Source of the DNA: Gracilariopsis chorda
Lineage: Eukaryota > Rhodophyta > Florideophyceae > Gracilariales > Gracilariaceae
NCBI GenBank assembly: GCA_003194525.1
Contig: NBIV01000297.1
Coordinates: forward strand, 1-64,000
DNA: 64,000 bases
Reading direction: 5' to 3'
Shown: piece after piece, positions 1,515-64,000 of the stretch
Numbering within the stretch: the stretch's first letter is position 1
Layout of the letters: the number at the start of each line of letters is the position of its first letter
The notes under the pieces: generated by a model
The model's database searches: none
What the model was told of the DNA's origin: nothing
The model's input: only the letters and a program-made list of their open reading frames with translations
Made by a program: the position numbers and the translations under genes

Positions 1515-2165
1515 GGTTATGGGCCCAGAGCGTCGATATTCGCAGACGTAGCTCCGTTTTAACTTGTTTTATTTTTGCGTGCGTGCGTAAGATCGAGCTG
1601 ATATCACGCAAGAGACCAGCAGTGGTTAACTTGTCAAAGCATATCGCGCTTGTTAGTAACCTCCCTGGGACGTTTCGTATGGATTGAGCACCCTACTCTT
1701 GAAGTGCGCGGAATAGGGCAGGTCGAAGACAATTGCGCCTCGCACCTGGAGAGAGCATTCAGGGTCCAGGGGTTCAACCCTTAGGGGAGCGGAGGTAGTT
1801 TCTCCTGTCAGGGCGCCCGCCTTTACGAAGTCTCATTTTTTTCTTTTCTTTTCCGAGTGCGCTTCAGAGTCACTTGTGAGTTTACTCCGGGCTTCAAGGA
1901 CCCGAACTCCGCCTGTGATTCGCATACGCGACTCGTCCTACTGAGCGTTGAGTCTTTGTTACACGGTCTCCGCTGCCATCCTAGCTGTTGAGTGTCAACA
2001 AATCTCCACTCCAGTATCTTTTTCTTAGAGTGAGATCAGCTACAATTCAGCGGCTTACCGCGATCATTCTCTTCAATTACAGCTGATCGTCGATTCAAGG
2101 CATCGAGTCCCTCACTCTGCTACATTTGTTTTATTTACTTTGGCATTTGAACTCCTTCTGGAACA
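1515..2165 (+). other. B2a primer binding site and untranslated leader
   Basis: GGTTATGGGCCCAG at 1515-1528 directly abuts the LTR and is complementary to the anticodon arm of initiator tRNA-Met, the half-tRNA priming mode known for Drosophila copia. The leader then holds the block shared by all elements here: a CCTGGA...TTCAGG hairpin, GGGTTCAACCC, then GCGGAGGTAGTTTCTCC ending near 1806 and a GCGCCC tail. The short frames inside it have no coding support. Confidence 0.7.
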
Positions 2166-3671
2166 ATTTCTGACTCTGAAGTTGAGTCCGAAACCACCTC
2201 TGGTGTGAAAATTCTACGCTTCCATGGTAAACGTGGTGAAGATTTAACGTTATGGAGACATCGTCTACCGGCTGCATGTAGCATCAAAGGAGTCTGAAAG
2301 GTCGTAATGCCAGGCTCGGAGCGGTCATCCAGTGCTACCACGACGCAGGTGTCGGTCTCAAGTGCTCTGCAGACCACTCCCCGTGTACTTACCAAACGAG
2401 AAAAAGCATGCGCAATCATAATGTGCGCACTTGGAGATGCCCTTCTGCGTGTGGTAATAGACGTCGATGATGACCCTGGGCATATGCTCCAACTTCTTGA
2501 TGCGAAGTATGCATCTAACAGGACAGTGTCACGTATTGCTGTACAGACCCAGCTATTCCGAATGTCGTATAATGGTAAGGATATGTCGGACCATGTCGAC
2601 CAGTTTGCGTCCCTATTCTCGCAGCTAGACCGAGTGGGGAGGGATGCTGCCATTCCCGAATCCCACAAGGCGCCAATGCTGTTAGCTTCTATTGATCCCA
2701 ACTGCTCACTGGTGTCAACGGCTGCGGAACTTCGGAAAAGGACATCTCAAAATTGACATGGGACTACGTGGCCACTACCCTCATAGACGAGTAAAATGCT
2801 CGCCAAATTCATTCAGGCGGTTCTGGTCACAGTTGCAAACGCGTGAAGAGCAGAAGTAAGGGAAGTAGCCGTTCATGTGGACACACCACTTCGTCAATAC
2901 TTACGGCATTGATGGAAGTACATCAGATCCCAACTCAAACAATGACTACAACGGCCGCGCTTATGCTATTGCAGGCAAAAATCGTTATTATTGCAGCTTC
3001 TGTGACAGAGATGGTCACACGCAGGATCGATGTCACATGAATCCTGACAATCCAGACAATCACCTGCCTAAAGCTATCTTGGAGAAACTCAAAAATTGTT
3101 CCAGTCACAAACTCAAGCACTCCGGAAGGTCATCACAAAAGGAATCTAAGATTGAGATCGCTGCAATGTCTGCTAAAAAGTCTGCAGTGGTGCCCCCTGC
3201 ATCTACTTTCATAGAAACCTACGCAGACAGTGGTGCCACATCCCACTTCTTCAGTTACCTTCTGCGTTCGTCCCGAACACATTGGTTGACATACAGCAAA
3301 GGACGATTAAGGTCGCTGACAACACTACAGTCTCCGCTGCACAAAGAGGGGATGTAATACTATCTTTTTCGAAGGCTAACCCAAGGTTGACAGATGTACT
3401 TCTAGTCCCAGATCTTGGATACAACTTGGTTTCTGTAAATCGTATGGCCGATAAAGGCATTCAGTCCCTTTTCTGTGCGAATGAGGTTTTCGTTATACAC
3501 GAAGATGGGTTAGAGATTGGATGTGGGCAACGTGACATGTCCTCTCGTTTGTACATGCTGCCAAATCCAATTGAGCATACCGACTGCGTTTCGCATAGCT
3601 ATGGTGCTCATGCAGTGTTTCTTGATGCTGGGCAAAAATATCCCGCAGGCTGGAGGGCCCCATGTGCTTCA
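2166..3671 (+). pseudogene. B2a gag-protease (non-autonomous copia), broken
   Basis: This is the capsid-like gag plus protease of a copia element. The usual ATG before SDSEVE is ATT at 2166, exactly as in the second copy B2b at 48301. Visible parts are the gag core (HGKRGEDLTLWRHRL, then about 2300-2756), a CX2CX4HX4C zinc knuckle (CSFCDRDGHTQDRC, about 2994-3036), and the aspartic protease motif DSGATSHFF near 3226. Stops and shifts include a TGA near 2296, a shift near 2740 and a shift near 3260. The integrase zinc finger and first catalytic Asp are absent: sequence jumps from the LPNPIE region to an integrase core remnant beyond B3. The reading resumes at 10358 and again at 24164 after two insertions. 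Confidence 0.8.
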
Positions 3672-4544
3672 TGTTGATGTTGGCACATGGTCGAGTGCCT
3701 GATAGCCCTAGGACATCATGATAGACTACTTGGAAACAAAGTTGCATAGAATGATGGGCACTTTTGAGCACCTGCTTTGCAAAAGCGCATATGTGCGTTT
3801 GCTCGAATCCAACGTGAAACGGGCATATGACTGACTACTGCATTTGCCCTTATGCATTCCATGGTTTACAAGTGGTATGCATTGTATGAGTCACAGGCAC
3901 AGCATGGGCCACTTGGCATAATGTGATTGGACCATCTACGTGCAATCTTATGACGCTACATGTGGTTTACAGGAACAAGAAGTTGTTGCAGACGTGTGAT
4001 TATGTGTGCCAGCACGTGCAAGGTAGGTAATGGACTTAGGGTATCGATTTGGATGCAGTGCATGTGAATTTGTGCTTTGTTGTGGTGATGCTGATGAACG
4101 TAAGAGATTACATAGTGCTGTGACATGCTGGCACATTGTTGTAATGGTTCTTTCACTTACCGTGCTTCGTTGCCATGTGCTGGCATAATGTTATACATGG
4201 TTGTAATGAGTTGTCATGGTTGTTTCACCTACCGTGCTTCGTTGGCATGTGCTGGAATAATGTCATGCATGGTTGTAGTGAAACTGTCACCAGTTTGTGC
4301 AACCCTTGTTGTGTTATATTTGAATATGATTGGTAGTACTGGCTGTCCGCACTTATTGGTTAAGGTTTTATTGTAGTTGTAGTGCACTCTAGTGGTGCTA
4401 TATAAGGTGCAGATGTTGCACCTCCAAGTAAACCACCCCAAGGTTGACAACGTTCACCCTTGTTATTGTTTCATTCTTCTTCTCTGACTTCTGTCGAAGC
4501 CCAACTTCAGTTATCATTATCATCAACATCAGTTATCATTCTCA
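3672..4544 (+). repeat. 5' LTR of B3 (873 bp)
   Basis: It begins TGTTGATGTTGGCACATGG and ends CATTCTCA, where the primer site starts. It holds a GCGCATATGTGCG variant of the shared palindrome near 3785, the ATTGGTAGTACTGGCTGTCC core block near 4330 and a CTATATAAGG TATA box near 4399. A pair of direct repeats (TTCACTTACCGTGCTTCGTTG and a near copy) lies at about 4151-4245. Confidence 0.88.
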
Positions 4545-5205
4545 GGTTATGGGCCCAGAGCGTCGACATATTGCAGACGTCGCTCTTACCTAGCTTTCAT
4601 TTATTTTTGCGTGCCCGCGTAAGATCGAGCTGATATCCCGCAAGAGACCAGCAGGGGTAAACTGGCGAAAACATATCGCGCTTGTTAGTAACCTTCCTGG
4701 GACGTTCCCGTACGGATTGAGCACCCTGCTCTTGAAGTGCGCAGAGTAGGGCAGGTCGGAGGAATCGCATCTCGCACCTAGAGAGAGCCAATATGGTCCA
4801 GGGGTTCAACCCTTAGGGTAGCGGAGGTAGTTTCTCCTGTCAGTGCGCCCACTTTTACGAAGCTTCATCTTTTGTTTTATTTTATTTTCCGAGTGCGCTT
4901 CAGAGCCACTTGTGAGTATACCCTGGGCGTCGAGGACCCGAATTCTGCCTGTGATTCGCGAACCAGACGCGTCTGGACGAACGTTGAGACTTGGTTACAC
5001 GGTCTCCTCTGGTGCCCTTGCTGTAGAGTGTTGGCATTCCTCCATTTCAGTATTCATATCTTAGTGTGATCTCAGCTGCAAGTTCTTGGATGACCCTCCG
5101 ATTGAACACTTTCCGTCTCTTGGTAATCGGATTTTGAAAAAGCATTGAGTCCCTCACTCCGCTTAGAAGTAGATATTCATTGGTGTTTCAGCTCCTTCTG
5201 GAAGT
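4545..5205 (+). other. B3 primer binding site and leader
   Basis: The tRNA-iMet anticodon-arm primer site GGTTATGGGCCCAG occupies 4545-4558. The shared leader block follows, with GGGTTCAACCC and GCGGAGGTAGTTTCTCC at about 4803-4838. Just before gag the sequence GGTGTTTCAG/CTCCTTCTGG at about 5181-5200 looks like a 3' splice site. No convincing coding frame lies in between. Confidence 0.65.
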
Positions 5206-8200
5206 ATGTCTGACTCTGAAGTTGATTCTGAAACCAACTCTTGTGTGAAAATCCCACGCTTTCATGGTAAGCGTGGTGAGGACTATACGCTATGGCGACA
5301 TCGACTTCGTGCCACATGTCGCATTAAAAATGTGTGGAATGTAGTGGAATTTACCCTGCATGAGGCATCTAGTGCCACGATGACTCACGATTCAACCTCT
5401 AGTGCTGCTCAAGGCAGTTCCCGACTAATGGCGAAACGCGAAAAAGCATGTGGAATCATCATCTGTGCACTTAGAGATGCCCCACTACGCGTTGTGATGG
5501 ATGCGGATGATGATCCTGGGCGTATGTTGAGAATGCTAGATGCACGTTATGCCTCCAACCGAACAGTTTCTCGTATCGCTGTACAGACCCAACTGTTCCG
5601 AATGTCGTATAATGGGCAAAATATGTCAGAATTTGTGGATCAGTTTGCCTCTTTATTCTCACAATTAGACCGAATGGGAAAGATGCTGCCATTCCAGAGT
5701 CACATAAGGCTCCAATGCTACTAGCCTCTATCGACCCCAACTGCTCACTAGAGTTAACTGCTGCGGCACTCAGGACTAAGGAGATCTCGGAATTGACGCG
5801 GGACTATGTAGCAACTACCCTGATTGATGAGTACAATGCTCTTCAACTTGGTTCTGTCAGTGCCACTCGTGTTCGTATCCGTAAACAGAACCGAGGTCAA
5901 GGTAACGGGCGTTCTATTGGACGTAATAAATTGTCAAATGGGAGCGAGAATGATGGTAATATATCAAATTCCAACTCAAACATTGAGTCCAATGGGTGTG
6001 CTTATGCTGTTGCCCCCAAAAACGGTTTCCATTGCACTTTCTGCGACCAAGATGGCCACACGCAGGACCGATGCCACATTAATCCTGAATCCTGAGAATC
6101 CGGACAACCGTTTACCCAAAGTCATCTTCGACCAACTCAAAGCTGGTTCAGGTGACAAGTCTAAACACTCTGGCAAGTCATCACCAAGGGGATCCAAGAT
6201 TGAGATCGCCGGAATGGGTGTCGAGAAATCTACAGTGCTTCCATCTTTGTGTAAGAGCATGGATACCTATGCGGACAGTTGTGCCACGTCCCATTTCTTT
6301 TGTTCGCTTCTGCGTTTGTGCCCAAAACCTTGGATGACGTATCTCCGAGACGTACTGAACTTGCTGAAAGTACCACGGTCACGGCCACACAACAAGGGGA
6401 TGTTTCACTGCCCTTCGTCGAGGCTGACATCCGATTGAAGGATGTACTACACGTCCCAGATCTTGGATACAACTTATTGTCTGTTGGTCGTATGGCTCAT
6501 AAAGGAATACAGTCGCTGTTCGGCGCAAGTCAGGTTCGCCTTACCCACGAAGAGGGATTTGAAATTGGATGTGGCCAACGAGACACGCACTCTAGGTTGT
6601 ACACGCTGCCATTTCCCATCGAGCACACCAATCACACAAGGCTATTATCCGCAAAAGACCAAGACGTCACAAAGCTGTGGCACCGCCGACTTGCACATAT
6701 GAACCCACGAGACCTTCAAAAGATACAAGAGCAAGTTGATGGAGTGCCAAAGCTGAAGCAGATGGAGGAGGTATGTCGACCATGCGGTCTTGGCAAAGCG
6801 CATAAACTTCCGTTTTTGGGAAAGTTCAAACGATCAAAAGAGATTGGAGACATTGTGCGCTCGGACATCATTGGTCTTCTGCTGCCATCGTTTCCAGATC
6901 GTTTTCAGTATGTGTCTGCGTTTTCGATGACCTCTCTCGATATGCCTTCCTCGGCTTCATGTTGTATAGATCTGAAATTAGGGAAGTGGTTTTGGGTATA
7001 TGGCAGAATCTGCAGCAGTTTGGAGGAGCTCACGTGCTTCTTCAAACTTTGCACTGGGACAATGCAGAGGAGTACATTGCTTTATAAGAAAACGACGCCA
7101 GTGGTCTGCAGGAAACGTCGTTATCACCTCCTTATACACTGGAACATAACGCAATTGCCGAGCGCATCAATCGCACCATGGAAGAAGCTGCTCGACCTTT
7201 GCTGATTCAGGCCAACTTGGCAGAATGCCTATAGCCCTATGCAATCAAATATGTTATTTATATTCGCAACAGAGTTCCGCACTCTACCACAGGCTCGACT
7301 CCATACCTGTTGGTGACTGGTAATAAGCCATCATTGAAGCATGCTAGAGTGTTTGGATGCGAAGAATATGTATTGAAAATGAACCCGGACACCAAGTTCG
7401 AGTCTCATGCACTTGAGGGAATGTACTTGCAGACTCTGGAGCATGGTGTTTACGACCTTCTGGTGACTGGTGACAATGAGATACCTCGAATTGTGAAGTC
7501 CCAGCATGTCACATTTGATGAATCTACATTCCCTGGTGCCCCATACCTCGTAAAATATATGAATGACGAAAGTGCATCAGACGTTGACTATAGTAGCGCT
7601 GGGTATGAGAGCTGTAGTGACAGATCGGATGAGTTTTCACTCGATGAATTCGGAGAACTTAGGTCAGAAGCAGAAACCGATGCACATAATGCACCAGACC
7701 AACCCACAGATACTGTGAATGAGGTTCAAACTCCAAGCATTGACAATGCTGCAAGCGATACCAATTCTGCGGAGGACGCTAACGAGGGTTCTAGTGATAT
7801 TGATGAGTCCAATGTTCATCCCGAACCAGAAACTCGATACTCTCGTCGCAGTCGGCGTGCACCACAGCGCTGGTGGAATAAGGCTGTTGCCGCTACCTCT
7901 CAAGTCGAAGTGACCAGAAGTGACGACCCAACACTTCAGAAGGCATTATCTTCAACTCCATCGGAAAGAGCCCAATGGGAGAGCGCCATTGATGAAGAGC
8001 TCACATCACTAAACGACAAAGGTACTTGGGTTCCAGGTGACTTACCGCAGTCACAGCCTTTACCTACACATGTCATTATTAACGTGAAACGTGATGCACA
8101 CGCCTCAGTGGACTGATTCCGAGCTCGAATCGTAGCAGGAGGGAACCACCGGACATATGGTCAGGATTAGATGGAGACGTATGCACCGGTTGTATCTTTC

Positions 8201-9496
8201 AACTTGGTTTGCATGTTCTTGTAACTTATGCTGTGCATGCAAATGTATGTCGCACAGGTTGACATCAAGACCAAGTTCCTCAATGGAGACCTAAAGAAAG
8301 ACTTTTGGGTAATATCTCCGCATGGTATAACTGGGCTGAATTCGCGTTGTTTTAAACTGGTAAAGGCCATATATGGACTGAAACAAGCTCACCTTGCGTG
8401 GAACACCAAGTTCAGTACTTATATTAAAGGCTTAGGATTTGAAGAACGGCCTAGGGCACCATGCGTGTTCCTGCGCAATTTGACCAGAAATACCTATGCG
8501 TACATCCTGGAATACGTGGACAACCTTCTCATCTTCACGCCAAGTGCTGAAGAACGGTCCCGAATCTTGGAGAAGCTCAAGGCACTGTATGATCTGCGTG
8601 TTGAGGATCGTGTCAGACTCTACCTAGGTGTTGAGTTTACCTGAAAGACAGACTCCAATGGCCAGCTGTTGGGTGTAAAACTTGCACAATCCATGTATAT
8701 CGAAGGGATACTGCGCAGGTGTGGACTGCAGAATTCGAAACCAGCACCGAGCACAATGGTGGAATCTTTCTTTCCTTCACTTGATGTGGAGGAGCATAAA
8801 TTACCATGTGATCTTCAACTGTATCAGCAGATGATCGAGTCTGTGCTGTACTTGGCATTGCGTACGCGTTTGGAAATACTCGCTTCTTTTCTTATACTGG
8901 CGCACTTCCAGAATGCTCCTACTGCATACTGTCATCGGGAAGCCAAACGTGTATTAAGTTATCTACGTGGCACTGGTGATCATTGTTTACTGTACCGCCA
9001 AGGGAGTCTACAATTAAATACTTTTGTAGACTCTGATTTTGCTGGCGATACCACAGATCGCAAGTCTTCGTCTGGGTATTTGATTAAACTTGGCTCCATC
9101 TCATGTATCTATGGTGCCCGTAAGCAATGCTCAGTTGCACTGTCAACTCGTGAGGCCGAGTACTATGCATTGTTAATGGCTGCTCAGTAGATACTCTGGA
9201 TATCACGTGTGCTCAGAGATTGTGGAATAGCAGTTGGTAATAATGTTCCAATCCTCTCAAACAACTGTGCTATTGAGTGGGCTGTTGGTGAACGTTGCCC
9301 TTCTGGGCGTGCGAAGCATATAGACGTCAAGGTACACTTCATCAGGCAACTAGTCAAGAGCACATTGATAACTGTGAACTATGTTCTGAGTGAAGACAAT
9401 GACGCCGACATCCTCACCAAGCCACTTAGCCCTGCCGCTGCACGAGTGATATTGGAACGAGCTGGATTTCATCAGGAACTCGAGGAGGAGTGTTGA
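5206..9496 (+). pseudogene. B3 gag-pol polyprotein, decayed
   Basis: The frame starts at ATG 5206 (MSDSEVDSETNS), the same start as intact B1, and is colinear with B1 to the terminal ELEEEC. Frameshifts occur near 5692, 6090, 6300 and 6910, and several near 7030-7140; in-frame stops lie near 7231, 8116, 8168, 8222, 8641 and 9188. Catalytic residues are also gone: the protease DSGA is DSCA (near 6275) and the RT YVDD is YVDN (near 8515). The gag zinc knuckle (CTFCDQDGHTQDRC), the integrase HHCC (WHRRLAHMN), the RNase H core (VDSDFAGDTTDRKS) and the RAKHIDVK block are still readable. It cannot support its own transposition. Confidence 0.88.
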
Positions 9497-50606: not shown

Positions 50607-50676
50607 GGCCCCTTGTGAACAAAAATGGTTGCCCACGTATGCCCAATAAATGGACGACTAATGGCCAAAACTATCT
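50607..50676 (+). repeat. Left terminal inverted repeat of the DNA element
   Basis: The sequence opens GGCCCCTTGTGAACA, followed by TGGTTGCCCA and CCCAATAAATGGACGAC. The reverse complement of 63632-63701 opens GGCCCCTATGAACA, followed by TGGTTCTGGGCC and GCCAATAAATGCTCGAC. The match is imperfect but ordered and confined to the ends. Confidence 0.75.
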
Positions 50677-51542
50677 TGTAAAATTATGACATTATATGTC
50701 CCAACGATGGGCGAGAATTATCCAAAAGAAGGACAAAGATTATGGGCGACAAATGGTCACATTCAGCATGCCGAATGAATTCCTGTATGGGGAAACGATC
50801 AGTCCGAAGTAAATCTCCCAATACAGCCCACAACTTTGGCAAAATTGGAACAATATCAGGACGAATTGATGTCCATACATGTCCTGAATTGTACATTTGT
50901 ACTACGCATGGGTCGTTTATGGGCCTCATTGTAGGGATCACTTATATGACCCATTGTTGGACAAAACAAGTACAATTAAGGCACCTGAACAGAGCCCTCA
51001 TTGTGGCCCAATTAAGCTCTGAATCGGTACTTAGCAGCATTCTTCTCGTAGTCATTACAAGTACAAAACACGGTCTTTTTGGGGTCGAATTATGGCCCCA
51101 ATGGTACTATATTTTGGACTAAATGACATCCTTTTTTGCTCGCAATCAGTGCTCAACAAGAACAAAGAAAGGACTTCAAAAGTGTTCTATTATTATCTAA
51201 TCTCCATCCATGGCATGGTAGGATGACTATAGTTTCCTCGGAACAATACACGTAGTAGCAACACATATGAACGCAGAGACAACAAAGAACTTGTCGCCCC
51301 CAGCAGAACCAGAAGTAGCACGGAGATCGGTCCAGCGCTATCGTACGAACGCCACCGTGGCCACCGCATCATTGGGTAATGGTAGACTTGAATGTGTAGT
51401 GGTGAGAGAAGATATTTGAGAAGGATATTAGAGAACTTCAGAGATCTTGCCTTTTTGGTGTTCGCAGGGTACTGAACACTTACTTGGTCTCGAATTTATG
51501 TGGAAGAGCGCGGGTAATGCTGGTTGAATATTGACGATTCCT
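50677..51542 (+). other. Left subterminal region with repeated GGGC/GGCC motifs
   Basis: No gene is seen. Short motifs recur in both orientations: ATGGGCGA at 50707-50714 and 50742-50749, ATGGGCCTC at 50919-50927, and TGGCC, GGCCC or TGACCCATTG forms between 50660 and 51100. Arrays of short subterminal motifs are typical of CACTA elements, where the accessory protein binds, but I have not counted them statistically. Confidence 0.5.
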
Positions 51543-53258
51543 TCACTTACGATGGGCCGCAGGGCTTGGATGGGGACGCGCCATGGATTTGTTCAAAAGA
51601 GTCTTTCCAGAACGTTTCTGAGAATTCTTTCTCGACATATTGCTCTGAACGTTCTGTGTTTTCTGCTGCAATTGCGAGGTAGAAACCAGTCCAGTGCTAG
51701 TACTTCCTTCTTTGGTTTTCAAGAACGTGCCACGGGAAGGATTAGTAGTGGCAAGAGACACCTGTTTCCTACGCTTAACTCGCTCTCGCTCCCCGACTTG
51801 TGGGCAGTGTCGATGCTTTCCGGTCTTCTTCGGCTGTTTGTTAGAAACAGTAGCTCGTGAATGCGGAGGCGCACGTACTTCATTTTCGTCATCATTCTCC
51901 GATCGTTCCTCCAATGAATCAACTTCCTTGCCGATGAGGCTGCTTCTCTACGGCTGTTGCTGAACAGCTGCAGCTCGCATGGCGCGCGGATGTTGAAGTA
52001 TCACTTCGTCGTCATGCTCCGATTCCGCTTCATCCTCCGAATTACCTACATCAGTGAAGCCCTTCTTCTTTGGCTGCTTCTGAGCACTAGTTTTTCGCTG
52101 TCGCGGACGTAAAAACATCTCTTCATTGTCATCATTCCTACATTCTTCTTCCGATGCCTCTGATTGATGCACCTGTTTGCTGCCGAGAATGACATTGTTC
52201 CTCTTTTTCCACCTCCTCTCGCGTTCATTGCCGTGATTAATTAGGGAAAGCAGCGAAAAACCATTCTGAGGAGGTTCAGAACTATCATCATCGTGTTCTT
52301 CTGAACTGGTGTTGTTGGAATCGCTGTGACCTGCGTGTTCGATTTCGAAAACATTTTCGACATAACTATGCTCGAATAGGTTTCGAACCTCTGATATTTG
52401 CCCGGAATGCATTTTACCTGAAGGATGTCCCTCATCCGCAATGTCAACTATCGCTTGAACTTCCTGATCCTCATTTGCTGCCAACAATTTCCCTCTCTGA
52501 GGTGTCGCTCTTTTTCCTCCAGGGCGGTCGACATCATACCTCGCTTCAACGAAATACTGCGGCCTTTCTGTCTGCTTTGTACTCGTTTGAGGCTCCAAAC
52601 AATCCTCTGCATTCTGAATGCGAACCTGTTCATCACGTTATGCAGCCTTTGCTCGTCTTTTGGAGGCCTCGGCAGCAGCCTTCTTATCCCTCTGAATTGC
52701 TTCCTTGATGAATTTGTTCATGACTCAACCACTTTGTGCAGCTGCTAAGACAGGGTACAGTTCAACCACCTTCTGTTTCAGTTGTATAAGCTGCGAAGGA
52801 AACTTTCTCCTGACTGAACTATAGGTGCGAGTACCGCGTTCCACACCCAATCGATGATACAAGAAGGGGCGAATATCGTCCTTAACGGAGTTTGCCATTG
52901 CAGTGTAGATTGGAAAGTCATCCTGCATCGCGTTTGAGTCGCGTCGCATCCGTTCTCGATACAAACGGTTGAAAAGTGCTCGTGCGGAAACTGTGGTGCC
53001 AGTGGGAACGCCTGGTCGGGCTGACGCTTTTATTCGCCTCTTCATTGATGCAGTTGGAATCATTACAGAGTTTGGCGGAAGCTCCCTTTCTCCAAGAGCG
53101 TCAATGTCCGAATGAACAATATCGCCTTTTGAACGAACGACACCTTCACCTGCGGTTAGTGGCTGATTGGGCGCATGGGAAGAAAGCGCAAGTGCAGCCG
53201 ATGGCACAGTGTGCATGGCGCTGTCCGCAGTCACACGTTGCAGAGTTCTGGTACTCAT
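51543..53258 (-). pseudogene. Charged-repeat protein gene, one frame with three in-frame stops
   Basis: Read leftward from ATG 53258, a single frame continues about 570 codons to the TGA at 51543-51545, interrupted by TGA (52727-52725), TAA (52640-52638) and TAG (51950-51948). The coding character continues across each stop without a shift. The N-terminal part (about residues 85-175) is a compact domain: SARALFNRLYRERMRR, then DDIRPFLYHRLGVERG and QLKQKVVELYPVL. A Lys/Ala-rich helix (KEAIQRDKKAAAEASKRR) follows, then an acidic middle. The C-terminal third has three degenerate repeats of about 35 residues: NDDNEEMFLRPRQRKTSAQK, EHDDEVILQHPRAMRAAAVQ, ENDDENEVRAPPHSRATVS. I do not recognise the family. 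It is divergent from the transposase with about 510 bp between starts, the place of an accessory TnpA-like gene, though no similarity to TnpA is claimed. Confidence 0.65.
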
Positions 53259-53768
53259 GCTAAATGCACACAGGAACCAAGAAAGGATTTGTAGTTATTA
53301 GGAAACCGCGTCATGCAGGAATGCATTTGGTGCAAAAGAATATGGAGAGCACACTTACTCTTTGTAAAAACGATGAACTTCTCAGGAAGGCCGTTTTACC
53401 TGTGACGAACGGTACGAAGAAGTACGTCAGCTGTAGGCTAATGCTTCGCCGCAGATGAAGGAAAGGGGATAGGAACGGAATGAAGTATTTCAGATGCAGA
53501 GACCGGGGATGTGAGACTCGTTCCAAAAAGTTCCAGAGAGCTAAGGATGCCAAAATACCGCAAGCATGTGAACAGAAAAGATATAAGTGAAGTGAAAAGT
53601 ACGTGTTGCCCGAAACTTTTGCTGTTTTCAAATCTTAGAATAAATTCTTCCCAGATTGTTGTATCTCCGCGGTGGCAGTTTGCATCTTCTTAATTCGCAG
53701 AATGAGTACTAGGCGTTTGCCTTCTTCATTCCGCATCATATAACCATATCGTTCTGCAGCACTGTGAT
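53259..53768. other. Divergent intergenic region between the accessory and transposase genes
   Basis: About 510 bp separates the two divergent starts. Short frames occur on both strands but none looks coding. It probably holds both promoters; I see no clear TATA pair. The transposase may have an upstream exon here that cannot be recognised. Confidence 0.35.
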
Positions 53769-56671
53769 ATGGGGAGAGGAAGAAAGAGATACCGATGGGA
53801 AATACCACTGCAAGGTAGGCAATTGCTTTTTGAACATGATCATGCTGAGGAGGAAGGTAGGTTTTCCTCAGAGAATAGATATGGGGAGGGAGCTCAAAAG
53901 CGAGCACGCAAGTGTCCGGTCGAGAGAGATACTTCTCTTGGTAGAGAAGAAGAAAGGGCATATCCAGATGTAGTGCCCCAGAAAAAAGATTCTCAACAAC
54001 CTTGTTATGAAATTAAAACTTCATCACAACAATCTGAATTCCTGCAAGAACCTGATGAAAACGAGAGTGTAAAGATTCATCTCGAGTACGGAGACTGTCA
54101 TAATGGAGATTACTCTCTCAAGAAGGCTACTGCATCTGATGAGAACGGTATAAATGGTCCTGATCTCCAACAGTGTGCTAGTGTAACACTGGAACAGCAA
54201 CTTGGCCAATCCTTCGAAGTACCACCACTTTCACCAGTCTTTGGGATACATTCCTTATTTCCAGCGTTTTCGGATCACGCTGAACACTCCATAGAGCTTT
54301 CAACACACTCAACGGAAGCTACCAAATCTCCAATTCAAGAAGAATATGAAAGTTTGGCTGGTTTCATATACAATGCAGTAGTTCCCAATGAGTCCCAGAG
54401 AGCCATTGAAAGACTGTTGAAAGTGGCACCGATATCCTCGCCGTTTTCTTACAGAAGCCTTATATCGTATGCGTTTCGTAAGGCTCATGTCGAGAAATCG
54501 TTCGTAAGAATGTGTCGTAGAGGACATGTTGCTTGTTTGGGACGACTGGAATCCGTACCCAAATGCCCCTGCTGCGATTGCTCTCTCGCGAAAAGTCCTC
54601 AAAAATATTGGTTCATGAAACCACCATCAGCCCTGAAAGCGCTTTTCCGTGTTCCTGATTCCTTTCGTGCAATAATGGAAGGGTTTCTGAGAGCAAAGAA
54701 CTCAATTTCCAACAGTCGATCTGAAGTTGAGGAGCATGATTATTATCATGGCTCAATGTTTCAAACACAGCACAGTGCACTTCTGGAAAAGTTTACGCCA
54801 CACGGCAACGACCTCTTCATTTTCCTCACGCTGTCCTCAGATGGATTTGAATGCTCTCAGAACTGCAAGGGAGAACCCATCTTGTGCTGGCCAGTCATCT
54901 CCACCATTCTAAAATTTGCCCCTCACGAAAGAAGCCGAGCGTCAAACTGCTTATTCCACAGCGTTAGTCCTTCAAAGCATGACCTGCAATACTTTGATAC
55001 CTTCATGACGGACATAGTTTCGGACCTGAAGGAGTTAGAGAAAGGAATAATGACACTCTGCCATGATGGAAACATAAGAAAAGTGCACGCTTTTGTTCGG
55101 TACTTTATAGCAGATTGGCCAGCTCCATCGAAAGTTTTGGGTTACGTTGGTCACACAGCGAAACTGTTTTGTCGATTTTGCATGAAGAAAAGAGTGTACA
55201 TGAATGAAACACGGTGCCTTTGTGCTGTACCGAAACCAATTGCTTCTGAAGCAAGTTCTACCGAGAAGAAGTTCATACCGAAGCGGTGAAATCATAAGAA
55301 ACGAATGTGGACACAAGAGATTGGCGTCAGGTGTTAGATCAATATGGAGAGATCTGAGTTCCAGCAACATCGAAGAGAGCGCAAAACGACGACTGATTAA
55401 CGATTCAGGGATCAAAAGGCCTTCCTGCTTATCAAAACTGCTGATGGATTCTGTCTTCTCCTCTCCGTACGATGTCATGCACTTGGTTCTTGAGATGGAC
55501 TAAACAAGTTCTCATACTTCTTACATGCAGTCACCGAAGACACACCAAGCTCGAACAAACTCCAAGGTACTGCATACCGGTCAGCTTTATGGAAAGGATA
55601 AACAAATCTTTGGATATCTGTGTCCATGGGATACCAAACTCTTCGGGAAGAGCTCCGCTTTCTCTTCAAAATGTGTCTCGATACAACGCCGAAGACCTGA
55701 AGCGCCACGCAGAACTGTATCTTCTTCCGTTTTTTCATCGTTTCAAAGTAGAAACACAGATTATCAACCTTTGGAATAAGACAAAACATTTGGTGGACCT
55801 ACGCTTCACTTTCAATTGTGATGACACGTTCGTTAAGCATCTCCAAAACGTGGTGGAAGAATGCTATGCAAGATTAGTGATGCTCTTTTGCGCAAACAAG
55901 CATGATTCATATTGTCTTACTCCTACCACGCATTCCCTACTGCACTTGCCCGAGCTTCTCAACGAATGCGGTCCCCTCCCAATCACTTCCCAGTTTCTTG
56001 TAGAAAGACGTTTAGGGGAAATAGGCAGACGAGTTCAGCAGACATCCAATATTCCGTCACACATCTTTCACAAAAACTTCAAATTGTTTGCTCTGAAAGT
56101 GGCCAACGGAGGAAGATCATTCACAGACATTTTTGAGGAATCACGTTTATATCCAAAGGCTGCTGTAAGTCGTATCAGTGGTTCTGAGAGCGCATCAGAA
56201 TATCACACCGGCACAAAAGGTCATGGAGCTGGGACAAAGTACCAGAAGCTGACCAAGGAGTAAAAGAAAGGAGTACGGTATTTTCTGGCAGAAAACTTTC
56301 CAGATGAGAAAGATGTTGCCAACATAGTATCCTTGAAGCAGTTCAGACGGGCAAAATTGAGTAGAGGTGCCGACAAATTGGTAATTGAAACCGTCGATTG
56401 TCACCCTGTGCGATCTCAACTCTCTTCCATACAAGCACAAGCACGGCAAAGGTACTGCATCGCTGCTCATTTCTCTACAGAAATATCTTCGCAGTCCGAG
56501 GATACATCTGATCCAGGAGCATTGAACAAGGTGTGGAATTTGTATTATGGTTCCATTCAAAAACTTGTCGAGGTTGTATTCCAACTTTCACGGTTGAGAG
56601 TAGCTGCTGTGTACACAGATGTTAAATGGCAGCATAGCATGGTAGAGGATCACATGCTCGACCTTGTGTAA
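53769..56671 (+). pseudogene. Tnp2-type (CACTA superfamily-like) transposase, decayed
   Basis: This is the DDE-type enzyme expected to cut and join the TIR ends. The first frame, MGRGRKRYRWEI, is open for 506 codons. After a charged N-terminus come a Cys cluster typical of Tnp2 proteins (MCRRGHVACLG about residue 248, KCPCCDC about 266), the core LSSDGFEC (about 355) with WPVISTILKFAPHERSRASN, and DWPAPSKVLGYVGHTAKLFC (about 449-468). At about 55289 the frame shifts by one; the second frame gives SSPYDVMHLVLEM (near 55462-55500), the conserved Asp-Met-His block. A second shift near 55500 leads to TKQVLILLT..., ERINKSLD and a DUF4218-like stretch (TTHSLLHLPELLNECGPLPI near 55920). A TAA at 56261-56263 interrupts the C-terminus, and reading continues in frame to 56671. 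Introns are an alternative to frameshifts, but no good GT-AG pair restores the frame. Confidence 0.78.
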
Positions 56672-58103
56672 ACAGATAAAAAGGGCCACGGAATGAAGAC
56701 GACTGAGCATGCGAGCTGTATTCAGAGAGTAATTGGCTTCCTTGACATTGAAGGGCGGAGGTACTATCTTGATCAATATCGCAATGATACCAAGATTGGA
56801 AGAAAGTCCAATCTGCAAGGATGTATGAAACCATGATAAGTAATGAAATCATCCCAACGATTTTAACCAACACAATCTCATAATGCTGTAACAAGGGTTA
56901 TTAGATATGACACACATGTGAGATATGTAGAGGAAAGTAAAACAAGCGATAATGGAAATGAACGATAACAGAACTTGCGCAATGAACAAGTGAGTCACAT
57001 GTTTGAGTGCTTCTGCGTTGTACCTATGATCTTCTTCTTTGCTTCCCACACAAAGATCAGGATCTCCATTTTCGCCTTTTGAAAAATGAAACGATTATGC
57101 ACAGCAACGAAGACAACGATATCATCGGAAATATGACGCCAGTTGTAGATTTGAAGTCGATGTATGATACGAGGAGTTGATGAAGAAGCGCAGTTCCAGC
57201 TGCTCGCAGGCCAAGAATTGCAACGTCATAGACACTGCAAAGGGAACTGTAGCAGTAGATGCGTACTGGTGAATACGGTGCAGAACCCTGTGTCTGTGTA
57301 TAGGACTGAAAAACTTGGTCGCACAATGCTTGCGCGCATCCACGGACGGAGATTAACCTTTGTCGTACACGTTAGCATTGCATGGAGTACCTTATGGGGC
57401 TCTGGAGATTGTCTTGTAAGACGTTAAGTAGGTGGAAGAACCCTTCATTATAAAAAAAGCTTCTGATCTCAGCAAAGTGTTCCCAGCTACGCATTGAATT
57501 CTCGCTTTCCTGAAAGAAAAATTTCATAGGGAACCATAATTGCAGCACATTTATGCTCTTTGATGTCAGCGATGCTTTTCCTTGGAGGTCGTTGAGGTTT
57601 GTTGGATTTCACTGCCTATAATGCCCAGCATGAGTACTTCACTCCACCAAAATTGGGTCCAATGAGGCCTACCAACATCTTGTTACCGAAGCAGTTCATG
57701 AAAACATGAATAAGGTATCATTCCCGTGCTCAGTTCAATCCATGCACGATGGTTGTAGAAGCTCACATCTAGATAGCTCATGATGGGTAACAAGTTAGGG
57801 TGGTTTCTGTACAAGCTCTGACTTCAAATTATTAAACTCTGTTTCGCGGATTTGCAGCACTGTGCGTTTGAGAGTTTCAGCGGTTGCATAGCTCCCACAG
57901 ATGCCACCGGCCCCATCACAGCCATTACTTGACAACGCATATGACCTATGCTCTGTGCTAGCCAAACGGTACATTGATCTGTACGATCGAAGATGTATAG
58001 CATTCCGTGCAACAGCGAGAGCGAAAGTGAGACATACATGCCAAGCATTGCAGAGCTGACCAGAACTGTATCACATTCCGAAGCGTTGGTTTGGCGCATA
58101 GTG
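56672..58103 (-). pseudogene. Degenerate hydrophobic segment, possibly a captured membrane-protein gene
   Basis: On the minus strand several broken frames in succession encode hydrophobic stretches: SSAMLGMYVSLSLSLLHGML (about 58057-57998), GTALLHQLLVSYIDF then GVIFPMISLSSLLCIIVSFF followed by KRRK (about 57200-57070), and LFIAQVLLSFISIIACFTFL (about 56990-56930). Between them lie polar segments such as SENSMRSWEHFAEIRSF. This looks like a multi-spanning membrane protein broken by shifts or introns. I do not recognise the family. It lies downstream of and convergent with the transposase. Confidence 0.35.
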
Positions 58104-58854
58104 AAACTGCGGGCACGTTCCTAGTAGTTTCGTCCGATTAGCAATTCGGAAGAGACTGTCATTCGTTAATCAAATCTTAATTCATGACAACGATGCGCTG
58201 TGATTATTGCTGCAGAGCGTGTGCATCTGTGACCAACGATACCAGATACGCTCTTGTTCCAGAACTTATTGATTTCGCTGTAGAGTTTTTATCCGTGCCG
58301 CGGACATCAAGCAAGGACATCAAGCAAGAATTTCTTTGAATATTGCAACCGCGCAATGACCAAACTGTATTACGGTAAGTATGAACGAAACACCTGGACA
58401 GTTTGTTTCCATCCATCTTTGGTCTTGCTCGAAGTCCCCCTGTGTGTTGCAGTGGGTTCTTGGTGTCGCTTCGTAGTGTGCAACGAGTGCAGAGGGGGTC
58501 CCTGCCCTAGACTATTTCCTATTTCAATGCACTATGCCATCTTGGCATTGAGAACAGAAGCGGCCCGGGTAGTAAAAGTAGAAGAAGCGATTCATTATGA
58601 ATGAAGTGATGGCGGTTACGCTTGCTTCAGTTGGACGTACTCCTGATACATGTGCTATCATGGATATTTGTGAAGTTGCAGCATTGCACTCCAACATTGT
58701 GCTGACGCCCTGCCCGCCACACGAACATGAATACAGGGCGAAAATTTGTACACGTTTTGGTTCCTGTCACAGACTTTGTGGCAGGAACCATATCGGTCTC
58801 GCACACGTCTAGCTTCGTCATCTCAAATCGTGAACGTTTCCGACAAACGCGTCA
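58104..58854. other. Non-coding stretch with a strong hairpin
   Basis: No convincing gene is seen on either strand. The main feature is a near-perfect inverted repeat at 58758-58790, described separately. Short frames here lack domain-like content. Confidence 0.4.
58758..58790. repeat. Inverted repeat with 14-bp arms
   Basis: TGGTTCCTGTCACA at 58758-58771 pairs with TGTGGCAGGAACCA at 58777-58790, one mismatch (a G-U pair in RNA), with a 5-base loop. No T run follows it on either strand. Its role is unknown. Confidence 0.75.
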
Positions 58855-59620
58855 GTGGAACCAGCGATTTTTGGCCTCGAAAAACTGAAGCGCTTTGGTG
58901 CGTGTAGTACACTAGCAACAAATTTCGAAATGGCCTCCAATGAAGAGAAGCGTTCTCATTTCGAGATCATGCTGCCCCAAAGCGTCCAATATCCGCTGAA
59001 CAAAGTGTGGCTTCCAGGAAATGCTGAAGTTCTTGTTGTGAATGCAGTCCTACCGAACAATCGAAATAATGATGCTGACTCCGAAGTAGTCCATACTGTT
59101 TCCGAGAAGCAGGGAAAAGTTGCAAAACCAACGGCGAGTGGTCTCAGTGCCTCAATTCGGAAGGCGTTATAGAGAGAGAGGCAATAACCGTGCCAATGAA
59201 AATGAAAAGAACAGAAGTAGATACAGAAAGGCGGTTTTCAATGAGTCTCAGATAGAGAGAAAAAGACGCATGGCTAAACTCAGAGCTCGATATGCTCATA
59301 AGCTTAGCAATTTAGAAATTGATGAGCAATCAGAAGACAATACATGGTCCAAAGGTTCACAGAGTTCTGCAACAAACACGGAGAGTTCGAAAAGTAGTAG
59401 CCAATACTCGTCTCATTCTGAACTATCGCTTATTACAAACGGTGTGAGCGAATTAGAAGGATCTGTTACAAGTCAATCCAGTCGAGCTGAACAATGTGTA
59501 GAAGCCACTGATCGTGATCCGGATGATGAAATCAAGCAGTATGTGTACGAAATTAGAGTTGAAATGAAAGTTCTAAAGAACTACATCCACTATTTGAACC
59601 CGGTGGATAAGTTACCTTAG
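58855..59620 (+). pseudogene. Basic/Ser-rich hypothetical protein, two overlapping frames
   Basis: The first frame (MASNEEKRSHFEIMLPQSV at 58930 on) is open to the TAG at 59170. A second frame, open before that, continues to 59620. The likely single protein shifts from SGLSASIRK to RERGNNRANENEKN near 59160. It has an Arg/Lys-rich stretch (ERKRRMAKLRARYAHK, about 59260-59310), a long Ser-rich linker and a C-terminal helix with coiled-coil spacing (DDEIKQYVYEIRVEMKVLK). I do not recognise a family. Such basic-plus-coiled-coil layouts would fit a DNA-binding accessory protein of the element, but that is inference. Confidence 0.45.
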
Positions 59621-62087
59621 AATTCCATGGTCTTGCGAATTTGAAAAGAAACTAGACAAGCACAAATATCTAATGAAGACGATTCCGGCGGTCAGATAGC
59701 TTCGGCAAACCAGTCATAAATCTTTAGTAGTTAATCAAGTTCACTCTCACTTTTGTTAATATCGAAAGCGCTTGCCCGTTCAATCGTTCCACCGTTCTTC
59801 GCTCTACCTTCCGCAAAGGCTATGAGAAACCTTCGATGTGCTGCATTCCTCCGTTGTAAGAACTGCATCATGTTGTCCCGTACTACCTTCCACTGGCATA
59901 GCACGAGCTAAAGCTGACGCCGACGGCGACCAGCGCATCTGTTTCGCCTTTGCCCTTCTGAAATGGTGCCATTGTGCTTCCGTTGCACTATGCACTACAC
60001 TCATAACATAGCATAAATAGATACATCTTTCTCCAAATTGTTTGTTCTATATGTGTGCTTGGCCTGTACATCCTTAACAGAGTTGGTAAGGCTCCACAAC
60101 AACGCGTAATTTCTCGCCTTGACGACCGAGGTATTAGTTATATACTTCAATTCCTTGACCGTACTGCGGCCAATCGCCACACCAAGTCGATCGGAGTGCA
60201 CGGCTTCCATGATGCCGACCAGTCTCATTCGCATCGGTTCGACAGCATGCGGATTAACAATCTTATACAGCTATCCTTACAACTCCAGAAAGCAACGAAC
60301 GGCCCACGACTGGCCAGCAGGCTTGAAGATCAACGTAAACGACCCCCTATGCTTTGCTAGCCACGCAGTGGCAGCCAGCCAGTCGAAGTCAGCAGTAGAA
60401 TGCGACACGACAATATCAAGGTCTCTCGGTACCAATGCGCCACTTTCCGTGGTTTGCTTTGTGCGTTGAACGCGGCGCGAGAGCGGCAGAACATACGAAT
60501 GTAATGTGTGGTCCGTGGCGCATGATTGCAAGTAGATGAAGCGCGGTTGTTGAAACGAGTATTGCACGAGGGGCTTTATGAGACGGGCTTTTAGAGCTGG
60601 GGCGGCGGTGAAGGCCTAGCGGAAGCGCGTTTTGTCGCGCACAAAGCGTAGTGACGTGCGTTGCAGACGCGCCCGTAAGATTGCGATGGCGCTGCGAGCG
60701 TGGTGAATATGAGCGCATGGTGGTGAGTGTTATATCTGGTAGCGATGGATCTAGTGATTGAGAGCGCTTACACGTGGACCGGCAGTGTTGCACATCCACT
60801 GTGTTTTGCTCGGAGATTGTGCATGTTTTACTCTTCACCACAGTCCCGCAGCTTATCCGTCTACAGAAAATCAACGATGCGCTTGTCATGGTCGACAACG
60901 TCGCTGTAGACCAGCGGAGGCAAGTGAGGCTGATGATGCTTTCTGAGATCACAGATCGGAAGGCGAGCAGTTCTTTCTGGCTCGCAGAGCACTGACTATT
61001 CCTTGATGGGAGGAGATGGGCTGCGCTTCATGTACATTGCATCTTTTGTATCCCGGTTTGTGGTAGCATTCAGAAGTGCATTGTCTGCCATCTGCAGAAA
61101 AACAGGTAAACCTACCCAGCATGAAAATAGTCGTCTGCCATACGCTACATCTTGGGACTTTTGTCTGGCTTCAACTTGGGAGCATGAGAAGTATGTCAAG
61201 GGCAGCCAATACAAGTTCAAGGTGAAAAAGAACGAAAGTGTGCTCTCGTACCAGCTAGAGATCGAAAGAAGCTGACCCAGAAAAAGCGTGCGGTTTCTCA
61301 AATTGGTCAAGTCATCTCGATTGACGAAGGCAGCGCCGTAGCAAAGCCGACTGAGAACTCTCATCCTGCAATAGTGATAATGGTATCATTTCAAGTTTAT
61401 CTCCATATAGAGCCTAGCGATTGCCCACAGACTAGTTGCCAGGAAGGGGAGCGCGAAGAATGAGAATATCATCGGTTCTCGTTGGACATCAACGCCGGCC
61501 GAGCTTTGCAGTGCATACGTGCCAATGAGAGTTCAAGAGTTCACCACGTGCGGCGCGTCCACGGTGCGTATCTAAGCGTATCTTAAGGCCAACGCAAGGA
61601 GCAAGTGCAAGCGCGTCAGCGCACATGTGCGCTGTATGGATACAACTCTCTCCACTCTCGTATCGTCCGCAGGCATATTGTATCCGTCTATAGAGCTGCC
61701 AATTACAGCGTGCGTGCCACCGGCTGGAGTTCACAAGCACTGAACAATGTCCTGCATCTCAAATGTAATGATGCATAGCCGATCCGTCTTGTTCGGACAT
61801 CTGAGCTTGTTTTGCGCGGGACTTCAACATATTGCTCCAGCCCACCGCGAGAACACGTCAAGGTTACACTATCTCCAAGCAGTCTACGGCGCTCGTCTCG
61901 ACTTGTATTTTTTGTGGCTGGTAGAAAAGCGTCTTTACCACACCTAGGCTTAGTCGTTTTCTCGACAAGATTTCGACGAGTTTTTAACTCTGCAGTATAA
62001 GACACACACCCGCTCCTGAATCGTGTTGGTACGGTATGCTTCATTTACTGTTGCCTTACTTTCCTACCTGCTGACTATCGCCCAGAT
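59621..62087. other. Stretch without a supportable gene
   Basis: About 2.5 kb in which I find no gene I can defend. Several frames of 60-180 codons occur on both strands. A minus-strand stretch near 60460-60320 (PRDLDIVVSHSTADFDWLA, then GSFTLIFKPAG) has a protein-like look but no continuous frame. A plus-strand frame at 61003-61275 (MMGGDGLRFMYIASFVS) is similarly unsupported. It may contain introns or decayed exons of captured genes. Confidence 0.4.
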
Positions 62088-63390
62088 ATGTCGTCGCTTG
62101 CGGCACCGCCGCCAGCGTTGGATTTGTCTTTTTTCAATCTGTCGTACCACATTCCGCCGAAGCACACACTCCGAAGCAAAAACTCGGCACGCGACTTACA
62201 TTAAAGACGCTCTCACAGCCAACCCAGATTCTGCATTCCATCTTCGGCTTTGTGAGCTCATTTCAATCGCTAGCTATCTTGGGCCCTTCTGGTTCAGACA
62301 TTACCAGCTTGCTCAATCTGCTTACGGGGCGCAGCAAACAACCTCCACGCAGTGGCCATAGTTTGTTTGCTGAAAGGCAAAGGGTTGCAGACACAAAACG
62401 GCACATAGGCTATGCTATGCAGGATGAATTCATCTTCTCTAACCTAACAGTCTGCGAGACTGTTTCGCTCACCGCCGCACTACGTTTTTCGCACCTGTCG
62501 TCCGCAGAGAGACACCTACTCATATAAAATGCCATGTAATGTTTGAGAGTGCCCAACTGCCAGCATAGTCGCATCGGCGATCAGAAATTAGACAAGGGCA
62601 TCTCTGGTGGTGTGTGGAACCGTTTTACCATTGTCAATGAATTGCTTCACAATCCGTCAATCTTGTTTACAGACGAATGAACTTCTGGTATAGACTCAAT
62701 CTCGGCGTATACTGTAACTGCTGAAAACTCAGTCGTGAGGAACAAAATATTATTGCCACCATTCACCAGCCAGCAAGCAGTATCTTCGTTATGTTTAATA
62801 ATGTCGTGTTTCTTGCCGCTCGTCCCGTTACGTGCTTTGGTCCACCAGATCGTGTCATATTCTATTTAGAATCGGTTAGATTTCCTTTTCCATCACAATC
62901 GTACAATCCTAGCAATTTTGTTCTGGAACTCGTTATTGATGACGGAGCAGCGGATGATGAAAAGGAACAAGGCAGCAGCTCGTCCGATGAGCCAACTCTT
63001 TGCCCACAACAACACGTAATTTGTACCTGGGAAACTAGTGCGCCCGAACTTGTACCAGTACTTATGCACCAATCTCGTACACTGGCAAGGAAACGAATTA
63101 GGCCACAGGAGGGCATAGCACTACCAGTGCCGCAATATGATAATCCGTCAGTCCAGCCCACAGAATAAGGCAATTCTTCTTCTGATGGAAAACCACAAGG
63201 GGCTCCACTCGATCATCGATCAGCCCCAAAGGCTCGTCTCGCACGAATCAGGTGGTCGATCTCTAATCGGTACCTTGATGTAACTTGGAGACATGCCAAA
63301 TACGACATCAAACAAATATCCGACAGATTGGTTGTCACAAGTTAGAGTTCTTGCTGTTCGAGCTATTAGCCACAAGCGAATAGGTTGTGT
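62088..63390 (+). pseudogene. ABCG half-transporter, N-terminal nucleotide-binding domain fragment
   Basis: This is a decayed copy of the first part of an ABC subfamily G gene, whose normal product exports lipophilic substrates across membranes. ATG at 62088 opens MSSLAAPPPALDLSFFNLSY, matching the start of the ABCG nucleotide-binding domain. After a TAA and a shift near 62190 the next frame has SLAILGPSGSDITSLLNLL (62270 on): Walker A, canonically GPSGSGKT, has DI for GK and so lost the ATP-binding Lys. The Q-loop YAMQDEFIF (near 62412) is kept. The signature is ISGGVWNR instead of ISGGERKR (near 62602). Walker B and D-loop read LFTDE-stop-TSGIDS, with TGA at 62678-62680 for the Pro. The H-loop IHQPAS is intact (62761). 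NPSNFVLELV (near 62910) matches the end of the domain. WLSQVRVLAVRAIS (near 63325) resembles the entry to the first membrane helix; all six helices are missing. Confidence 0.82.
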
Positions 63391-63631
63391 GCATATACTG
63401 CTGATACCTACCGGACATGCGTCTAGACGGCGGCCATATTGACAAAAAACGGTACTAATCTCCGTGAGACCGAGAAGCGGGCAAAATGTTACTTTACAGC
63501 ACAATAACGGCAGCTTCCTGGCCGTTTGAAATCGGTTGACCTCCCAACCGACATTTTCTGTCCCAATTAAAAAACTCTAAATAATTATTTCGTGCAACAA
63601 GGCCATCGCGTGGCCATGTTTCGGTACCGAC
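63391..63631. other. Right subterminal region of the DNA element
   Basis: No gene is seen. GGCC-containing motifs recur (GGCCATATTG near 63431, GGCCGTTTG near 63521, GGCCATCGCGTGGCCATG near 63601), mirroring the left subterminal region. Confidence 0.45.
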
Positions 63632-63701
63632 AGTCAATTGTCGAGCATTTATTGGCCCTTTACAGTACCTATCTGGCCCAGAACCACTGTTCATAGGGGC
63701 C
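63632..63701 (-). repeat. Right terminal inverted repeat of the DNA element
   Basis: On the minus strand it opens GGCCCCTATGAACAGTGG and later has GGGCCAATAAATG and CTCGACAA, in the order seen at the left end. LTR sequence resumes on the plus strand with GGTGCCATGCACGC at 63702. Confidence 0.75.
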
Positions 63702-64000
63702 GGTGCCATGCACGCAGCAAACCTAGGGTATGTACATGGATGTGGTGGCATTTGTGCTTTGTCATTGTCATGATGATGCGAGGAAGTGCTTATACAGTGC
63801 TGCAGCATGCTGGCACATTGTTGGCATGTCCGGTTCACTTATTGTGCGTTGTTGGCTGCTTGGTTCACTTGGTTCGCATTGTTGTAATGTGTTGTTATGT
63901 TGTTATGCATGGTTGTACATAGCTGTAATCAGTGTGTGCAACCCTTATTGTGTTATGTTTGACTATGATTGATAGTATTGGGTGTCCCCACTTAGTGGTA
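63702..64000 (+). repeat. LTR continuation to the right of the DNA element (runs off the window)
   Basis: This corresponds to LTR positions from about 345 onward: GTGCCATGCACGCA, CATGCTGGCACATTGTTGG and the GATAGTATTGGGTGTCCCC core block. About 180 bp more would complete the LTR. Its detail (GCGAGGAAGTGCTTATACAG, GTCCGGTTCACTTATTG) is closer to the B1 LTR than to B2, whereas the left half at 50268-50606 is B2-like. Confidence 0.8.

Follow-up and report, generated by a model that had tools for sequence, protein, structure and literature searches.

Introduction

In the wider CACTA-Mirage-Chapaev (CMC) clade of DNA transposons, the element ends are mostly CA..TG and the target duplications are 2–5 bp long, as stated in the portion of PMC12730594 available to us. 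The same portion gives PlavakaA elements TGT..ACA ends with 2-bp duplications, and PlavakaB elements CATCA..TGATG ends with duplications of 2–3 bp. Chapaev elements, in the available part of PMC4079192, invariably have CAC/GTG ends and a duplication of 3–4 bp. Pack-TYPE elements are described, in the accessible text of PMC8903248, as non-autonomous elements which carry and duplicate gene pieces between their inverted repeats. The locus studied here is a Tnp2-type element of the red alga Gracilariopsis chorda. It lies within the window, a stretch of 64,000 nucleotides (contig NBIV01000297.1, positions 1 to 64,000), at 50611..63698 on the plus strand. An earlier note on this DNA had taken it for a Pack-type CACTA element that captured a fragment of an ABCG transporter gene.

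Our analysis makes it probable that the locus is a decayed CMC transposon with CCC...GGG ends and a 4-bp target duplication, which landed in the long terminal repeat (LTR) of an old copia-like array, and that a 2.7-kb piece bearing the ABCG sequence was added later. Apart from its unusual ends, the element is of an ordinary kind. Comparison with the other copies reveals the gene piece as an addition to one copy, and a striking claim of capture gives way to a plainer one.

Copies, Ends and Target Site

The genome searched comprises 91.3 Mb in 1,081 contigs, and the copies are named by contig: C297 (the window copy), C9, C79, C28 and C5. The left 70 bases of the element match five genomic places and the right 122 bases match five places, on the identical five contigs; the genome thus holds at least five copies, each with both ends present, and the search for further copies that the earlier note had proposed yielded four more. 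The copies are 93.8–96.6% identical in their longest BLAST matches. Their lengths are 13,088 bp in C297 (with the insert described below), 10,373 bp in C9, 10,370 bp in C79, 17,340 bp in C28 and 19,532 bp in C5, and the common element is about 10.37 kb when nested insertions are left out. The C28 copy contains an LTR retrotransposon with LTRs of about 170 bp (97.6% alike) in its left subterminal region, at element positions ~121–7085. The C5 copy has a 9.2-kb insertion in the same region, at positions ~199–9362, with reverse-transcriptase-like and other mobile-element-like frames, named by the look of the sequence alone. Large insertions near an end are thus found in three of the five copies.

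Comparison of the five copies fixes the termini as CCCTGTGAAC...GTTCATAGGG. The left terminal repeat (50611..50624, plus strand) reads CCTTGTGAACAAAA in the window copy and CCCTGTGAACAAAA in the other four. The right terminal repeat (63684..63698, minus strand), placed by end search and copy comparison, reads CCACTGTTCATAGGG on the plus strand; this is the right end of four copies, and the C79 end is altered with TTCATAGGG retained. The inverted ends proposed earlier are therefore real, but they had been placed at 50607 and 63701, and the true ends are 50611 and 63698. GGCCCCT is rejected as the end sequence, since its GGCC is flank and lies outside the element.

The same comparison, which the earlier note had also advised, shows a target duplication of 4 bp. 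It is exact in three of the five copies, namely C9 (GTAA/GTAA), C5 (TTAC/TTAC) and C28 (AATG/AATG). Including a miniature element flanked by TGAC (see below), exact duplication occurs at four of six sites, for which the chance is about 3.5e-9 at 1/256 per site. The window copy has an imperfect duplication, with GGCC on the left (50607..50610, from the five-copy comparison) and GCCG on the right (63699..63702, from interrupted versus empty LTRs). The piggyBac elements have CCC...GGG ends and duplicate TTAA. They were considered for the sake of the CCC...GGG ends and rejected, because the duplications here are GTAA, TTAC, AATG and TGAC, and no piggyBac domain is found among the Pfam matches.

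On either side of the window copy lies one half of an LTR-type repeat. LTR homology stops at about 50609 on the left and restarts at about 63703 on the right, and uninterrupted versions are found elsewhere on the contig, e.g. at about 40192, 47167, 22199 and 16314. These intact LTRs bear out the earlier observation that the repeat is interrupted and resumed at one place. The upstream frames hold pieces of copia-type gag and pol (PF14223, PF22936). The element would have inserted into an LTR within an old array of copia-like type, with 4 bp of target duplicated. The surroundings are a graveyard of copia-like repeats, in which the flanking LTR-type pieces recur on both strands at ~67–94% identity (window 1–64000, and C297 to 82000).

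Motifs of the ATGGCC type are clustered in the left (50611..51110) and right (63589..63698) subterminal regions, as had been noticed earlier. The C9 copy, from which the counts were taken on either strand, has five ATGGCC in its first 500 bp, two in its last 110 bp, and one in the 9,763 bp between. The Tnp2 protein may bind these clusters and then cut at the CCC/GGG ends.

Genes of the Element

The transposase gene occupies 53769..56836 on the plus strand and is broken in the window copy by 2-bp losses near 55.23 and 55.49 kb and by stops at 56261 and 56669, of which the second (codon 969) is common to C79 and C297. The Tnp2 domain (Transposase_21, PF02992) matches window 53706–55286 with E 3.7e-7 and the C9 copy with E 1.7e-12, both over the Pfam cut-off, which confirms the Tnp2-type transposase recognised earlier. 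The second-best Pfam match of the C9 transposase is Plavaka (PF18759, E 3.1e-8, over the cut-off); the corresponding match of the window transposase has E 0.0005 and is below the cut-off. The motifs SSD, ADWPA, CRFC, HSILH and VER can be read in the C9 transposase, and similar motifs are present in the transposases of contigs C215 and C81. The CMC pattern, in which C(2)C and H(3-4)H stand between the second and third of the acidic residues D, D and E, is seen here, the acidic residues of the C9 motifs being presumably the catalytic ones. A large protein set yielded no relatives of the transposase at E<=0.001, despite recognition of the domain by Pfam.

The divergent second gene of the earlier note also proved real. 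It is open reading frame 1 (ORF1), on the minus strand at 51546..53259, broken in the window, where its position was inferred from the C9 copy; in C9 the frame is open for 571 residues. The ORF1 protein might serve as a second binding protein. A third small frame, ORF3, of about 240 codons, lies at 58930..59655 on the plus strand; it is broken in the window, and its end was inferred from the C9 copy. Neither ORF1 nor ORF3 has a Pfam match over the cut-off. Towards the right of the common element, window positions 59680–60760 match the five copies only, and no other host DNA was found there.

Stop codons are present in the Tnp2 gene of all five copies, with frame-shifting indels also in C297 and C79. 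The private Tnp2 changes have nonsynonymous to synonymous counts of 89:22 in C297 and 146:55 in the other four copies summed, the lowest being 32:18 in C9; these lie near the neutral ratio of about 3:1. The stops together with the near-neutral ratios show that all five are dead copies. The window element is a decayed and probably formerly autonomous CMC transposon.

Related Families and Miniature Elements

The genome contains 48 Tnp2 matches, 47 of them over the cut-off; the C79 transposase is missing from these 48. The genome has 69 occurrences of the end motif CCCTRTGAACA against 46 of the reversed control, so that the bare word carries little information. The distance test took the 12 loci whose contigs hold the motif. 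Five of the 48 matches, those on C9, C28, C5, C297 and C215, have a motif that faces inward within 9 kb of them. For the other 43, about 0.3 would be expected by chance within 9 kb and none was seen; two lie farther away, at 15.5 kb (C162) and 20.0 kb (C154).

The C215 locus thus provides a second transposase, 44% identical over the main stretch, beside which the CCCTGTGAACA end recurs. The Tnp2 tree recommended in the earlier note was made within this genome, from 28 of the 48 domains, and in it the C215 transposase groups with the window family at bootstrap 99. The left end of C215, the one end read, is CCCTGTGAACAAAAG, and the word ATGGC is found there five times within 210 bp. Two copies of a further Tnp2 family, on contigs C81 and C248, have identical domains and long frames that stay open for 1148 and 779 residues; this family is possibly recently active.

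A miniature element of 175 bp at C138:85888-86062 reads CCCTATGAACA...TGTTCATAGGG, with TGAC on both sides. A genome search with 174 of its bases returned itself and one partial relative on C99 (82% over 61 bases). This relative begins CCCTATGAAAG, and a matching right end is absent from the 251 bases read. C101:231164 begins CCCTGTGATCAAAA. The motif sites of C38, C77 and C513 were also read, and no clear paired element was seen there.

The five copies, the 4-bp duplications, the second transposase family and the miniature with similar ends support the distinct lineage suspected earlier, though not with GGCCCCT as its end. We regard it as an evenly balanced proposition that red algae hold a distinct CMC branch with a transposase that recognises CCC...GGG ends, cuts there and leaves duplications of 4 bp. 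Such a branch would stand apart from the other Tnp2 groups of this genome and would include at least two autonomous families, the C9 type and C215, as well as miniature derivatives.

The Insert and the ABCG Relic

About 0.2 kb inside its right end, the window copy alone carries a 2.7-kb stretch (60772..63488) between TTAC at 60768–60771 and TTAC at 63489–63492. In the alignment with C297, the other four copies read GCGC-TTAA-TT(T/C)ACAGC at this site. The edges allow a duplication of either 3 bp (TTA) or 4 bp (TTAC). The insert contains 1.3 kb of unassigned DNA, after which come about 430 codons from the start of a decayed ABCG gene. The two reading frames at its left edge have no Pfam match over the cut-off, and the "degenerate hydrophobic segment" of the earlier note, for which no position had been stated, was not identified.

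The insert has TTA(C) as a short direct repeat on either side, which raises the question whether it is a small mobile element in its own right that carries a gene piece. A 3-bp TTA duplication would make its ends CA...TG, like those of many CMC-type elements, and such ends are usual in the clade according to the portion of PMC12730594 available. However, no inverted repeat of 12 bp or longer was found at the ends of the insert, and none is visible by eye. A DNA-level search of the genome detected no second copy of the insert, whole or of the upstream 1.3 kb, and the insert is for this reason also rejected as a repeat family. CA..TG alone is a weak sign, noticed after the fact. We hold this origin to be decidedly unlikely.

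The relic of the ABCG half-transporter (62088..63406, plus strand) runs from the start codon to about residue 430 and covers the nucleotide-binding domain and the linker. The ABCG fragment reported earlier is real, as its first piece matches PF00005 over the cut-off (E 2.6e-6; a second piece matches PF19055 below it, E 0.0033), but it is not a component of the unit, being missing from the other four copies. Relative to its relatives it has four in-frame stops and three frame changes. In three main pieces it is 62/49/67% identical to Agarophyton chilense P0004 and 55/41/50% identical to the paralogue on C263 in its own genome. In a tree of 35 sequences (the relic and 34 chosen from 120 listed), it joins A. 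chilense P0003 and P0004, near-identical to each other, at bootstrap 99. The best named relatives of the C263 gene are from A. chilense (60% identity) and Chondrus crispus (54%), which points to a florideophyte red alga as the probable host. A recent capture from the C263 gene is rejected, given these identities and the grouping with Agarophyton. The parental locus, for which the earlier note had suggested a search, was sought in this genome at the DNA level and not found. Because the relic is closer to A. chilense than to the paralogue in its own genome, its parent seems, from the sequence comparison, to be absent from this assembly.

The relic is altered at 24 of 95 sites that are invariant in its 25 best relatives, whereas in each of 12 control relatives the figure is 0–1 of 95–96 such sites. 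With the best seven relatives the count is 50 of 171, and with the best four it is 89 of 259. The carrier element has 399 private changes in ~10.35 kb (3.9%). In simulation, a neutral decay of 4% alters 8.8% of the residues, which the relic exceeds with P 1.8e-6; about 12% decay is needed for the 25% of residues changed. The relic is more decayed than its carrier copy, and part of its decay therefore preceded its arrival, unless the parent gene evolved unusually fast.

These data bear directly on the Pack-type CACTA interpretation, in which the transposon captured the ABCG fragment and moved with it. The position of the fragment, from start codon to residue ~430 inside the inverted repeats of the element, agrees with it. 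Nevertheless, the piece is missing from four of the five copies, the element has its own transposase gene, neither a parental locus nor a second copy was found in the genome at the DNA level, and by the decay estimate the relic predates its residence in the C297 copy. Gene capture by the transposon is not supported, and we judge it highly improbable.

Insertion or Shared Loss

The 2.7-kb difference could also be a loss from the other copies. The lineage may have carried the ABCG piece since an old capture, with a later deletion between the TTAC repeats in the common ancestor of C9, C79, C28 and C5. The two TTAC form a perfect 4-bp microhomology, C297 is the most divergent copy, and the relic is more decayed than its carrier, all of which would suit such an ancestral cargo. 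Yet no copy except C297 carries the piece, and the relations of the copies leave little room for the shared loss. Private substitutions number 142 in C9, 159 in C79, 184 in C28, 186 in C5 and 399 in C297, and no pair shares more than six. With such near-star relations, one insertion on the long C297 branch is favoured over one loss common to four.

The polarity of the changes was read from the two outgroup transposases. At Tnp2 sites where C297 differs in amino acid, C215 sides with the four at 21, with C297 at 3 and with neither at 24; for the C81 family the counts are 15, 0 and 30. The control sums for the other four copies are 40:8 (36 neither) with C215 and 29:3 (46 neither) with C81. The excess changes of C297 thus look derived in C297. 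The density of its private changes is 3.7% (standard error 0.3) in noncoding DNA, no higher than the 4.1% (standard error 0.4) at nonsynonymous sites. The site counts and these densities leave little stem for a loss shared by four, and we consider an ancestral cargo unlikely.

Several points count against the reading of a transposon with a later insertion. The TTAC...TTAC junction would be explained equally well if 2.7 kb had been deleted between 4-bp repeats in an ancestor shared by the four, and no element was found that is related closely enough to reveal how the noncoding insert site looked ancestrally. The four stop codons of the relic fit ~8% decay and not 12%, and part of its decay may be fast evolution of the parent gene rather than neutral decay. 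As to the transposon itself, the 4-bp flanks of the window copy (GGCC/GCCG) are unequal, those of C79 (GATC/AATC) are equal at three of four positions, and the bare end-motif word outnumbers its reversed control by a factor of only 1.5.

On the sequences at hand, an insertion into C297 is favoured but not proved. A 2.7-kb genomic piece, with the start of an already decaying ABCG gene, would have arrived later as a secondary insertion and would not have been captured during transposition.

C297 has about 2.4 times as many substitutions as the other copies (399 vs 142–186), with small indels hardly more numerous. Hypermutation of the repeat-induced point mutation (RIP) or CpG type was rejected as the source of this long branch: 199 of the 399 changes are transitions, and of the 134 C>T or G>A substitutions 42 fall within CG, similar to the other copies.

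Comparison with Known Systems

Among the papers listed in literature searches on CACTA/EnSpm elements of red algae, no title or abstract opening describes this lineage, and the titles examined in a search for CCCTGTGAAC were unrelated to transposons.

The element resembles CACTA/EnSpm in its Tnp2 domain, second gene, subterminal motif clusters and short target duplication. It differs in its ends, which are CCCT...AGGG and not CAC...GTG, and in the 4-bp length of the duplication. With Chapaev it shares a target duplication of 3 to 4 bp, as given in the available part of PMC4079192, but Chapaev ends are there CAC/GTG, and the Pfam matches of the present element are Tnp2 and Plavaka. The PF18759 match of the C9 transposase, which is over the cut-off, is a likeness to Plavaka, whose termini and duplications of 2 or 2–3 bp, as described in the accessible portion of PMC12730594, are not those of the present element. 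A gene fragment between inverted repeats recalls Pack-CACTA and other Pack-TYPE elements; however, the present element has a transposase gene, although broken, and the fragment is in one of five copies, unlike the Pack-TYPE elements as defined in the text available.

The 4-bp duplication, exact in three of five copies and one miniature, falls within the 2–5 bp of the CMC superfamily, and the CAC...GTG termini of CACTA/EnSpm or Chapaev proper are lacking. The element would work in the manner of CACTA-type elements and belongs to the CMC superfamily by its transposase, but lies outside CACTA and Chapaev as their termini define them. The second, 44%-identical transposase beside a like end points to a distinct lineage of this known superfamily. 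With it, a superfamily usually known by its CAC...GTG ends gains a lineage that is unusual both in its ends and in its target-duplication length, and searches keyed to CACTA termini would miss such red-algal elements.

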